This document shows, in pieces, positions 57,719-60,938 of a DNA stretch of 60,938 nucleotides. The number at the start of each line of letters is the position of its first letter. The stretch's first letter is position 1. The position numbers and the translations under genes are program-made. Origin of the DNA: an uncultured Eubacterium sp. GTDB taxonomy: Bacteria; Bacillota; Clostridia; Lachnospirales; Lachnospiraceae. The notes below the pieces were generated by a model. It ran no database searches. It was given only the letters and a program-made list of their open reading frames with translations, and was not told the origin of the DNA. The DNA lies in the NCBI GenBank assembly GCA_945910225.1, contig CAMDYG010000011.1, positions 1 to 60,938 of the forward strand. Reading direction: 5' to 3'.

Positions 57719-57898
57719 ATGGTTGGGTTAGTAAGTACGCTTGTAGGCGAAATCGCATACGAAGCAGTAAGGTTTGTTATAATGCTTGCGTTGCTGGTAC
57801 TTGCAGTATTCGTAGGTGGTAAACTCCGTAAGGCATCAGATGCAAAAAAGGCAGCAAAAGCTGATATGGAGAATAAAGAAAAAGAGATTACTGAATAA
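57719..57898 (+). CDS. Small single-pass membrane protein upstream of alaS
   Basis: A 59-aa protein with one transmembrane helix at about residues 12-36 (ALLVLAVFVGGK) and a lysine/glutamate-rich cytoplasmic tail. GGAGG precedes the ATG at 57719. It is followed 16 bases later by alaS and shares its promoter. The function is unknown. Confidence 0.7.
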   Translation: MVGLVSTLVGEIAYEAVRFVIMLALLVLAVFVGGKLRKASDAKKAAKADMENKEKEITE

Positions 57899-57914
57899 TC
57901 AGGAGGAAGTAAAA

Positions 57915-60557
57915 GTGCAGTACAGAGGTGTGAATGAATTAAGAAGATTATACCTTGATTTCTTTGAAAGCAAGGGACATTTGAAGATGAAGAGTTTCTC
58001 TTTAGTTCCGCACAATGATAACAGTCTGCTTATCATTAATTCAGGTATGGCTCCACTTAAGCCATATTTTACAGGACAGGAGATTCCACCAAGAAGAAGA
58101 GTTACAACTTGTCAGAAGTGTATAAGAACAGGTGACATAGAGAATGTAGGTAAGACAGCAAGACATGGTACATTCTTTGAAATGCTTGGTAACTTCTCAT
58201 TTGGTGATTATTTTAAGGATGAAGCTATTCATTGGTCATGGGAATTCTTAACAGAAACTGTCGGACTTGATCCAGACAGATTATATCCATCTATATATCA
58301 GGATGATGATGAAGCATTTGATATATGGAATAAGGAAATTGGTATTGCACCTGAAAGAATATTCAGATTTGGTAAGGAAGATAACTTCTGGGAGCATGGT
58401 GCTGGTCCTTGTGGTCCATGTTCTGAGATATATTATGATCGTGGTGAGAAGTATGGCTGTGGTAAGCCGGGATGTACAGTAGGCTGCGACTGTGACAGAT
58501 ATATGGAAGTATGGAACAATGTATTCTCTCAGTTTAACAATGACGGACATGGTAATTACACAGATCTTATCCAGAAGAACATTGATACTGGTATGGGACT
58601 TGAAAGACTTGCTGTTGTTGTTCAGGATGTTGATTCTATCTTTGATGTTGATACATTACAGGCGCTTCGTAACAAGGTATGTGAGATGGCAGGAGTTAGC
58701 TATAAAGAAGATGAGAAACAGGATGTATCTATCCGTGTTATCACAGATCATATCCGTTCAGTAACATTTATGGTAAGTGACGGAATTATGCCATCTAATG
58801 AAGGCAGAGGCTATGTTTTAAGAAGACTTTTAAGAAGGGCTGCAAGACATGGAAGACTTCTTGGAATTGAAGGAAAGTTCTTATCTAAGCTCTGTGAAAC
58901 TGTAATTGAAGGCTCTAAGGATGGATATCCTGAATTAGAGGAAAAGAAAACATTTATTACTAAGGTTATCTCAGAGGAAGAGGATAAGTTTAATAAGACT
59001 ATTGATCAGGGATTAAGCATTCTTAATGATATGGAAGCTGAACTTGCTTCTAAGGGCGAGAATGTATTACCAGGAGCAGATGCATTTAAGCTCTATGATA
59101 CTTATGGATTCCCTATTGATCTTACTAAGGAAATTCTTGAAGAAAAGAATATTACAATTGATGAAGCCGGCTTCAATGCAGCTATGGAAGAGCAGAGAGT
59201 TAAGGCAAGAAATGCACGTAAGGTAACTAATTATATGGGTGCAGATGCAACTGTATATGATGAGATAGATCCTGCTATAACAAGCGCATTTGTTGGATAT
59301 GACAAGCTCACTAATGAATCTAAGATTACAGTTCTTACAACTGAGGAAGAGGTTGTTGATGCTTTATCTGAAGGCGATAAGGGAACTGTTATCGTAGATG
59401 AGACTGTATTCTATGCTACTATGGGTGGTCAGGAAGGCGATAAGGGTGTTATTAAGACATCTGAAGGCGAATTTGCTGTTGAGACTACTATCAAGTTAAA
59501 AGGCGGCAAGATCGGTCATGTCGGAACTATGACTAAGGGAATGATGAAGGTTGGAGATTCAGCTACAATGTCAGTAGATCCTGCTTACAGAGCAGATACA
59601 TGCAAGAACCACAGCGCAACTCACATTCTTCAGAAAGCATTAAGAATCGTTCTTGGAGACCATGTTGAGCAGAAGGGCTCTTATGTTGATCCTGACAGAT
59701 TAAGATTTGACTTTACACATTTTCAGAGCATGACTAAGGAAGAGCTTGCTAAGGTTGAAAATATTGTTAATGAAAATATTGCTGCGGCTATTCCTGTTGT
59801 TACTGATGTGATGACAATTGAGGAAGCTAAGAAAACAGGAGCCATGGCACTTTTTGGTGAGAAGTATGGTGAAAAGGTAAGAGTAGTATCTATTGGAGAT
59901 TTCTCTAAGGAGTTCTGTGGAGGAACTCATGTTACTAATACTGCTAATATCAGACTTTTCAAGATTGTATCTGAAGCTGGTGTTGCAGCAGGTGTAAGAA
60001 GAATAGAGGCTCTTACTGATAAGGGCGTTATGAAGTATTATGCAGAGCTTGAGAAGACTATTGAGGATGCTTCTAAGGCAGCCAAGGCAGAGCCTGTACA
60101 GCTTGTTAAGAAGATTACAGCCATGAATGATGAGATTAAGTCACTTATGAGCGAGAATGAGAAGCTTAAGGCAGAGCTTGCTAATAATGCACTTGGAGAT
60201 ACAGCAGGAGATATTAAGGAAGTTAACGGAGTTAAGTATATTGCAACTAAGGTTGACGGAGTTGATATGAATGAATTAAGAAATCTTGGTGACAAGTTAA
60301 AGAGCGAGATTGGTTCAGGTGTTGTTGTTATCGTCAGTGCACATGGTGCTGACAAAGTTAGCGTTATTGCAATGGCAACAGATGATGTTATTGCCAAGGG
60401 CGCTCATGCCGGTAACCTTATCAAGGCTCTTGCTCCTATTGTTGGCGGTGGCGGTGGCGGCCGTCCTAATATGGCTCAGGCTGGTGGTAAGAATCCAGCT
60501 GGCATTGATGAGCTTATTGCCAAAGTACCTGATACAATTCTTTCACAGATTGGATAA
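57915..60557 (+). CDS. alaS: Alanyl-tRNA synthetase
   Basis: An 880-aa class II synthetase that charges tRNA-Ala and edits mischarged serine and glycine. The N-terminal aminoacylation domain starts VNELRRLYLDFF and contains GNFSFGDYFK. The editing domain has HSATH at residues 566-570 and CGGTH at 668-672, the zinc/editing ligands. A C-terminal C-Ala region with a glycine-rich GGGGGGRP segment closes the protein. The start is a GTG with AGGAGG at 57901-57906; an upstream in-frame ATG would add about 33 residues inside the small membrane gene and lacks a site. Confidence 0.97.
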   Translation: MQYRGVNELRRLYLDFFESKGHLKMKSFSLVPHNDNSLLIINSGMAPLKPYFTGQEIPPRRRVTTCQKCIRTGDIENVGKTARHGTFFEMLGNFSFGDYFKDEAIHWSWEFLTETVGLDPDRLYPSIYQDDDEAFDIWNKEIGIAPERIFRFGKEDNFWEHGAGPCGPCSEIYYDRGEKYGCGKPGCTVGCDCDRYMEVWNNVFSQFNNDGHGNYTDLIQKNIDTGMGLERLAVVVQDVDSIFDVDTLQALRNKVCEMAGVSYKEDEKQDVSIRVITDHIRSVTFMVSDGIMPSNEGRGYVLRRLLRRAARHGRLLGIEGKFLSKLCETVIEGSKDGYPELEEKKTFITKVISEEEDKFNKTIDQGLSILNDMEAELASKGENVLPGADAFKLYDTYGFPIDLTKEILEEKNITIDEAGFNAAMEEQRVKARNARKVTNYMGADATVYDEIDPAITSAFVGYDKLTNESKITVLTTEEEVVDALSEGDKGTVIVDETVFYATMGGQEGDKGVIKTSEGEFAVETTIKLKGGKIGHVGTMTKGMMKVGDSATMSVDPAYRADTCKNHSATHILQKALRIVLGDHVEQKGSYVDPDRLRFDFTHFQSMTKEELAKVENIVNENIAAAIPVVTDVMTIEEAKKTGAMALFGEKYGEKVRVVSIGDFSKEFCGGTHVTNTANIRLFKIVSEAGVAAGVRRIEALTDKGVMKYYAELEKTIEDASKAAKAEPVQLVKKITAMNDEIKSLMSENEKLKAELANNALGDTAGDIKEVNGVKYIATKVDGVDMNELRNLGDKLKSEIGSGVVVIVSAHGADKVSVIAMATDDVIAKGAHAGNLIKALAPIVGGGGGGRPNMAQAGGKNPAGIDELIAKVPDTILSQIG

Positions 60558-60560
60558 TTT

Positions 60561-60701
60561 GTTACTGTTCAGAGCTATGCAAAATCTGAGAGATACACAT
60601 AAAAATGCTGGCATTTTTATGTGTGTTTATCAGATTTTATATGGCGGATACGCCACATCTCGAAAATACACAGTATTTTCGAGACAGCTCTGAACAGTAA
60701 C
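60561..60701. repeat. 141-bp nested inverted-repeat element (cruciform or structured RNA)
   Basis: This element starts 3 bases after the alaS stop. Its ends are a perfect 16-bp inverted repeat: 60561-60576 and 60686-60701 (GTTACTGTTCAGAGCT and its complement). Inside lie three more perfect stems: 60581-60589 with 60630-60638, itself enclosing a 13-14-bp stem 60595-60608/60611-60624; 60642-60646 with 60651-60655; and 60658-60668 with 60674-60684. Almost every base is paired, giving a four-way-junction or cloverleaf form. No T-run follows, so it is not an ordinary terminator. It contains no convincing coding sequence. Confidence 0.75.
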
Positions 60702-60730
60702 GATAATATGCAAGATTAGATAATTGGGGG

Positions 60731-60758
60731 TTGACGATTTCAGAAAATATGATATAAT
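60731..60758 (+). promoter_or_regulatory. Predicted sigma-A promoter of rpsU
   Basis: TTGACG at 60731-60736 and TATAAT at 60753-60758, spacing 16. Near the expected transcript start the leader can pair TTGTGCG (60764-60770) with CGCACAA (60801-60807). Confidence 0.75.
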
Positions 60759-60837
60759 GTTTTTTGTGCGATTAGTAAATACCCTATTTATGTAGTTTGG
60801 CGCACAATTTGCAACAGAAGGGTGGTCAGGAAGTAGT

Positions 60838-60938
60838 ATGTCAAATGTCATCGTTAAAGAAAACGAGTCTTTAGATAGCGCATTACGCAGATTCAAGAGA
60901 AACTGTGCTAAGGCAGGCATTCAGCAGGAAATTCGTAA
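60838..60938 (+). CDS. rpsU: 30S ribosomal protein S21, 5' part
   Basis: Partial gene running off the window end; 33 complete codons are visible. The sequence [20 protein letters not shown], then [13 protein letters not shown], matches the N-terminus of S21. Only the start is present. A GGTGG/AGGAAG sequence lies upstream. The rest of the gene and any rpsU-linked genes (such as yqeY or dnaG in other Firmicutes) are outside the window. Confidence 0.93.

Follow-up and report, generated by a model that had tools for sequence, protein, structure and literature searches.

The window, by which we mean the whole stretch of 60,938 nucleotides analysed here (an uncultured Eubacterium sp. of the Lachnospiraceae), closes with alaS and the beginning of rpsU, and an element of 141 bases lies between these two genes. 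The features of the region are as follows.

57816-60557, forward strand: alaS (alanyl-tRNA synthetase), the upstream host gene, with the Pfam domains tRNA-synt_2c, tRNA_SAD and DHHA1; its start codon is uncertain.
60553-60560, no strand: left target-site duplication GATAATTT, overlapping the alaS stop codon and identical at 7/8 positions to 60702-60709.
60561-60576, forward strand: left terminal inverted repeat GTTACTGTTCAGAGCT, which doubles as the 5' arm of the closing stem.
60581-60638, forward strand: hairpin 1, 9 + 17 bp with one mismatch and a 4-nt loop, CTGG, closed by G-C.
60642-60655, forward strand: hairpin 2 TGGCGGATACGCCA, 5 bp with a GATA loop.
60658-60684, forward strand: hairpin 3, 12 bp with the loop ACA.
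60686-60701, forward strand: right terminal inverted repeat AGCTCTGAACAGTAAC, the 3' arm of the closing stem.
60702-60709, no strand: right target-site duplication GATAATAT, paired with GATAATTT at 7/8.
60731-60758, forward strand: promoter-like TTGACG-16-TATAAT before rpsU, also present in the empty site of the relative L129.
ATG at 60838, forward strand: rpsU, cut by the window end; the L129 orthologue is ribosomal protein S21.

With DNA parameters, 60561-60701 folds into a 16-bp closing stem, formed by the perfect terminal inverted repeat (60561-60576 with 60686-60701), and three hairpins, at -50 kcal/mol compared with -12.85 ± 2.86 for shuffled sequences (z = -12.99), none of 200 shuffles being as stable. 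An earlier note, made from the letters of the window, had placed a 141-bp element with perfect 16-bp ends at exactly these coordinates. Its 5-bp hairpin is recovered here, while the compound hairpin that it gave as 9 + 13-14 bp measures 9 + 17 and its 11-bp hairpin measures 12. No plausible ORF was found within 60561-60701, where the overlapping ORFs of at least 80 residues exit alaS in another frame or run antisense, and the element does not look coding, in agreement with the same note. No Rfam family reached its gathering score anywhere in the window; the best of 15 weak matches to other families in a search of 261 bases (E ≤ 10), MIR6140 with 30.5 bits against a gathering score of 140, was rejected as a chance long hairpin.

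The junction was compared within the genus, where the C-terminus of alaS could be located in 21 of 22 genomes and the stretch downstream examined in all 21. The start of rpsU lies within 700 bases of alaS in 18 of these loci, window included, one of the other three being a contig edge, and the covariance model described below places the element in a single locus, that of the window. The three nearest relatives, G018, G002 and G012 (98%, 98% and 97% amino-acid identity, respectively, to the window's alaS C-terminus over 139 residues), carry the empty site CAGATTGGATAATTGGGG without the element, where the TTGACG of the rpsU promoter follows the alaS stop codon after only 7 bases. The window junction reads CAGATTG-GATAATTT-element-GATAATAT-GCAAGATTAGATAATTGGGGG, and about 17 extra bases of near-repeat are found to the right of the insertion compared with these relatives, which may have been gained in the window or lost in the relatives. 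Very stable hairpins immediately 3' of a stop codon might be taken for an element that terminates or attenuates transcription between the two genes, and the earlier note had the element replacing the expected terminator. However, in the empty junctions just 7 bases lie ahead of the promoter, and the junction of L129, the one relative scanned, contains no terminator pattern. The element itself also lacks the pattern of a hairpin followed by a T-run, as had been pointed out, and copies elsewhere occur in all four gene arrangements, which makes a terminator function extremely improbable. With regard to the rpsU leader (window 60757-60837), it is strongly conserved over the genus loci (GTGCGATTAG..ATACCCTA..GCACAATTTGCAACAGAAGGGTGGTCAGGAA), reaches the gathering score of no Rfam family, and could be the leader RNA of a ribosomal-protein gene.

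The sequences bordering the element, GATAATTT and GATAATAT, agree at 7/8 positions and are a decayed 8-bp target duplication. At 14 loci carrying copies, flanks agree at a width of 8 and not at neighbouring widths (0.76 versus 0.40 when mispaired, the set comprising 16 rows with L056 counted three times in the means), and flank identity is at least 7/8 in 10 of the 14. In named genomes, 69 of 96 matches were used, leaving out 24 opposite-strand repeats, one match that was cut off and two with low scores; among the 68 with flanks, a set which overlaps the 14 loci in G045, G047 and G018, 42 showed flank identity of at least 7/8, and 29 of these were perfect, against 1.3% at 7/8 or better in the mispaired control. 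Read in the orientation of the element, the 29 perfect duplications end with T in 25 cases but start with the matching A in only 10, so the target preference looks asymmetric. A relative's copy on a viral contig (L126) follows genes for a phage holin and a glycosyl hydrolase 25 and is bordered by GATAATAT at either end.

In the window's own genome (G000), the window copy is the only full copy found: 21 end matches with up to three mismatches were counted against 15 with the reversed pattern, which is no clear excess, and three of the candidates (L015, L016 and L019) showed no element on inspection by eye. In relatives, a DNA search gave a match at E ≤ 0.01 in 15 of 98 genomes, own included. 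Coprococcus catus harbours dozens of copies; in its genome G045, all eight scored candidates of this search were matches, and end sequences with at most one mismatch occurred 41 times in forward and 48 times in reverse orientation, against 0 and 1 for the reversed-pattern control. An exact-pattern scan of named genomes returned 67 stretches, in hosts including C. catus, [Ruminococcus] faecis, Roseburia faecis, Anaerobutyricum hallii, Hominisplanchenecus faecis, Frisingicoccus, Tyzzerella, Eubacterium sp. AF22-9 and, in many cases, Lachnospiraceae or Clostridiales MAGs. Finally, a covariance model (R1) built from 14 copies finds the element in 10 of 22 genus genomes (E ≤ 1e-3) and in 72 of 299 family genomes (E ≤ 1e-5, with up to 10 candidates scored per genome), counts that include the genomes used to build the model.

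Taken together, the length of 141 bp, the noncoding character, the terminal repeats, the 8-bp duplication, the dispersed copies and the empty site are those of a miniature inverted-repeat transposable element (MITE), one of the identities that the earlier note had put forward; the genome search that it recommended uncovers many dispersed copies in relatives, with target-site duplications. The same note would have regarded a single genomic copy devoid of covariation and transcript as an incidental structure; the window's genome does hold one full copy, but the relatives are multicopy and covarying. Its alternative of a REP-like repeat does not fit: the element resembles REP palindromes in being a palindromic intergenic repeat, whereas REPs are given as 20-40 bp long in the available text (PMC3733652), compared with 141 bp and target duplications here.

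Transposons of the IS66 family typically start with GTAA and generate 8-bp duplications. Of the family genomes, 57 of 150 have matches to PF03050 (IS66), as do 4 of 22 in the genus; no match was found in the window's genome (an assembly 93.8% complete in 100 contigs) or in the copy-rich G045. A first set of 33 locus identifiers, of which L064 and L096 designate the same element and in which only ends starting with GTA or GTT were sought, yielded eight distinct IS66 elements with ends matching at 16 or more of 18 positions. Five of them have GTAAGCGTC- or GTAACCGTC-type ends, with perfect 8-bp duplications at L179 and L189, in agreement with the pattern typical of the family; L061 and L181 have other ends, and L096/L064 (G034, 1824 bp) carries the end class of the MITE, GTATCTGTTCAGAACCCC / GTAACTGTTCAGAACCCC. 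In a second set of 12 loci, chosen as mostly divergent, lower-scoring matches and not at random, the same end class is present on both sides in L272 (G162), L274 (G127) and L276 (G027). L272 measures 2358 bp, with the ends GTTACTGTTCACACCCTA / GTTACTGTTCAGACGCTA and the perfect 8-bp duplication GCCGGAAT. A single correctly facing end with at most two mismatches was seen in L271, L277, L278 and L282, a related end, GTTACTTTTCAC, in L275, and no MITE-type ends in the remaining four of the 12. Among the four elements with the MITE's end class, L272 alone has a duplication; flanks match at 2/8 in L096 and L276, and L274 begins at a contig end. Their proteins all match IS66 transposase models. The score of L096 exceeds the NCBIfam cut-off, and those of the other three (161.9, 162.8 and 171.7) fall short of its 180 but pass that of Pfam. 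This divergent branch is ISBst12-like. No pair of MITE-type ends was found in the window's genus at L353, L354, L356, L199 or L359 (L355 and L357 being left out), with one weak end match each at L199 and L359.

The MITE thus shares with these transposons ends of the class GTWACTGTTCA and, as in L272, an 8-bp duplication, but it carries no transposase, and no interior sequence common to the two was seen by eye. Since some IS66 transposons of relatives bear the end class of the MITE, an IS66 transposase is the likely mover of the window copy; the shared ends are the point in common, and, as no IS66 transposase was found in G000 or G045, the partner is one that we infer. The small mobile element would probably borrow the enzyme of another element. 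Two loci tried as autonomous elements, L095 (G045) and L358 (G252), were rejected, as other genes lie between the two repeat ends by eye. In L095 (541-4063, G045:C15), left and right MITE ends stand 3.5 kb apart around genes that appear by eye to code for an AAA-ATPase-like and an adenylation-domain protein; the flanks form no duplication, and this end pair is therefore probably a rearrangement.

The conservation of the interior was assessed on 60 matches, one strand each and 58 of them distinct (E ≤ 7e-8), in an alignment fitted to the structure of the model: 94.8% of the cells pair, both sides have changed in 47 of 49 pairs, and covariation reaches 0.523, against 0.147 when shuffled and at most 0.075 when slid. 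A previous count of 84 matches, including 19 opposite-strand repeats, had given 95.1% paired cells, again 47/49 pairs, and 0.441 versus 0.114. The covariation that the earlier note had named as support for an RNA is thus present, in an alignment fitted to the structure. Without any alignment, unguided folding yields three hairpins in 52 of 62 copies, two hairpins in 8 and four in the other 2, and 29 representatives at a 75% identity cutoff have a mean fold z of -10.2, the weakest being -4.6. Hairpin 2 is strongly conserved in the close family, and its pairs covary in the wider one. The loop homologous to that of hairpin 1 is CTTG in 37 of 62 relatives, and 40 of 62 retain a GA/GA internal loop in hairpin 3; among the 29 divergent representatives, a G(CTTG)C loop is found in 20, a GNA triloop in 18 and the GA/GA internal loop in 16. 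The window copy departs from all three features, with Watson-Crick pairs in hairpin 3 where relatives keep the GA/GA loop, no GNA triloop, and CTGG instead of the exact CTTG. With RNA parameters, 58 of 62 copies fold better as the named strand than as its complement (one tie, three opposite), and with DNA parameters all 62 of 62 do, a preference somewhat favoured by the selection of these copies with a model of the named strand. Among known motifs, d(GCGAAGC) forms a DNA mini-hairpin of unusual stability and CUUG a stable RNA tetraloop, so that the motifs fit DNA as well as RNA.

Selection, palindrome repair, or the two together maintain the interior fold. Covariation could be purely mutational if template switching at quasi-palindromes repaired mismatches between the arms, keeping perfect stems that have no function. 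A role of template switching in the origin and upkeep of hairpins has been proposed (PMC8794818, in the part available), the perfectly paired hairpin 3 of the window stands where relatives retain mismatches, and derivatives with deletions inside the hairpins exist, all of which would suit such a process. Yet repair should erase mismatches, and the GA/GA loop is kept in 40/62 copies and in 16/29 divergent ones, together with the terminal loops; repair of arms also predicts no strand preference, in contrast with the 58/62 and 62/62 reported above. Some selection is favoured by the mismatches and loops that have been kept and by the strand preference, and we regard an exclusively mutational origin as possible but rather doubtful. 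Most likely, the fold is kept by selection on the folded single strand, aided by template-switch repair.

Whether the fold serves movement was approached through shortened copies. Eight C. catus copies of 33-105 bp have lost hairpins, and seven of them still have flanks that agree at 7/8 or better. Movement may therefore not depend on the full fold, although deletion after insertion would look identical. Four derivatives of 80-81 bp in G045 (L099, L100, L101 and L106), three of which have duplications of at least 7/8, share an identical deletion junction, as if the 80-bp form had itself moved or the deletion recurred after insertion.

On this basis, we consider it very probable that the window element is a non-autonomous MITE, for which a DDE transposase of the IS66 type is the most likely mover, and a member of an old Lachnospiraceae fold family. 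The MITE inserted downstream of the alaS stop codon and ahead of the rpsU promoter, duplicating 8 bp of target, and its ends, of a class found in a divergent branch of the IS66 family, would have been recognised by a transposase of this type acting in trans. Its interior is no random remnant, the old family keeping the closing stem and three hairpins by compensatory change. Selection may act on the folded single strand, either as single-stranded DNA during replication or transposition or as a read-through transcript in which the structure shields the insertion, and template-switch repair of palindromes could help to preserve perfect pairing in the stems.

The fold would also be accounted for if the element were transcribed into a structured RNA that has a function of its own, such as an sRNA or a stabiliser of mRNA in 3' or 5' UTRs, mobility then being incidental. 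The CTTG and GAGA loops and the tandem GA resemble RNA motifs, and the strand asymmetry of folding also points in this direction. About half of the B. cereus bcr repeat copies, some of which belong to MITE-like families, are expressed according to the available text (PMC3446304), and four relatives of the window element overlap matches to RF01699, a family scored as a probable RNA by its authors in the part of their article available (PMC2864571). Nevertheless, among 56 copies whose neighbouring genes were placed by a crude ORF caller, those between genes of the same direction run 18 with and 22 against them, the other two arrangements accounting for 8 and 8; orientation relative to genes is unbiased, and only weak promoter-like matches (9/12) touch the element. 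For the structured RNA considered in the earlier note, covariation, strand asymmetry and the Rfam matches of some relatives thus speak in favour and the unbiased orientation against, and we hold it to be unlikely that the element is primarily an RNA gene.

The matches to RF01699 raise the question of a wider kinship. Clostridiales-1 is an Rfam-named family whose role is unknown. It was catalogued as RF01699 by Weinberg et al. in 2010 and scored as a probable RNA, as stated in the available part of the article (PMC2864571). Window positions 60500-60760 gave no match to it at E ≤ 10, hence none above the gathering threshold. When 31 loci were put to Rfam in three sets (at gathering, at E ≤ 1 and at E ≤ 0.01), four R1 members overlapped RF01699, namely L175 (51.7 bits), L162 (44.1), L170 (35.0) and L113 (32.4), for a gathering score of 48; in L116 and L115 the match lies beside the R1 element and not on it. 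RF01699 is found in 142 of 299 family genomes (E ≤ 1e-6, 130 of them over the cut-off) and in none of 14 control genomes. The window's own genome contains one match (E 2.2e-18), and the same-genus G014 has seven among nine scored candidates.

In a non-random sample of 70 Clostridiales-1 copies, made up of the 30 loci that the search gave and 40 others chosen for their high scores, 56 had ends that differ from GATRCCAGGGTCAAAAG and TTTTGACCCYAACATC by three mismatches at most, the TTTTGACCCYAACATC end falling outside the Rfam model. Among the 55 copies with flanks, perfect duplications of 7 bp border 30 and perfect duplications of 8 bp 9, against 1.25% and 0.07%, respectively, in mispaired controls. 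Given these terminal repeats and duplications, Clostridiales-1, at least as regards its well-conserved copies, is a MITE. It resembles the window element's family in its layout, where a closing stem encloses three hairpins that follow each other in the same order, in having a CTTG loop in hairpin 1 and GNA in hairpin 3, in being multicopy in Lachnospiraceae, and in its terminal repeats and target duplications. The ends differ, being GTTACTGTTCAGAGC with 8 bp for the window element and GATGCCAGGGTCAAAAGG with 7-8 bp for Clostridiales-1, and a search for the mover of such GATG-type ends, which covered L358, found none. R1 gave three weak matches (E 0.02-0.9) on Clostridiales-1 cores from 30 loci; the kinship consequently rests on shared architecture, loops and bridging members, and convergence is possible. 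Furthermore, in a comparison of 39 loci (L113 left out), members lacking GTWAC at both ends have an 8-bp duplication at the model ends in 1 of 27 cases, against 9 of 12 for those with GTWAC at both ends, so that mobility is shown for the core family and Clostridiales-1 and not for every architectural relative.

More tentatively, and with the balance leaning against it, one can propose a 'clover' transposon superfamily in Lachnospiraceae, including Clostridiales-1, in which the mobile unit would be a selected single-stranded fold riding on the ends of unrelated transposases. Its fold would combine the CTTG loop of hairpin 1 with a GNA loop and tandem GA mismatches in hairpin 3, its ends would be of the IS66 type with 8 bp or of the GATG type with 7-8 bp, and the module, as ssDNA or RNA, might help the element to spread or to be tolerated.

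Comparable elements have been described in other bacteria. QMITE2 of Coxiella resembles the window element in its terminal repeats, direct repeats of 7-9 bp and interior of 113-145 bp, and its transcripts are predicted to fold into stable stem-loops, such folding being typical of MITEs (PMC10969869, available part); the comparison is by description, and this part of the source mentions no covarying three-hairpin layout across genera for QMITE2 or prokaryotic MITEs. The bcr1-bcr3 repeats of B. cereus are likewise dispersed, intergenic and MITE-like, but belong to another host group, and are likened here by description from the available text (PMC3446304). In the literature covered, which had most subscription journals and preprints outside its reach, we found no description of the window element, nor of Clostridiales-1 as mobile. 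MITEs are commonly regarded as transposon remnants that keep shrinking, whereas a large and old family that keeps one elaborate fold while its sequence turns over asks for a function. Once an Rfam family that has a name but no known function is read as a transposable element, such 'RNAs' would also be annotated and counted differently in gut genomes and metagenomes.

Some further arrangements of the element were noticed. Tandem or overlapping matches occur in L056 (1465-1719, G034), G224:C23:296390-296663 and G241:C20:6952-7213, suggesting nested insertion or amplification. Structured relatives at about 1501-1643 in L158, L159 and L160, from three genera, have near-identical left flanks and adjoin a GMP-synthase-like gene, with a phage-type integrase in L158 and L159 (both genes identified by eye); these copies probably hitchhike at the end of an integrative element. 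In L114, a DUF3800-XI RNA (RF02975, 62.6 bits, 742-789) lies at the same locus as a divergent structured element.
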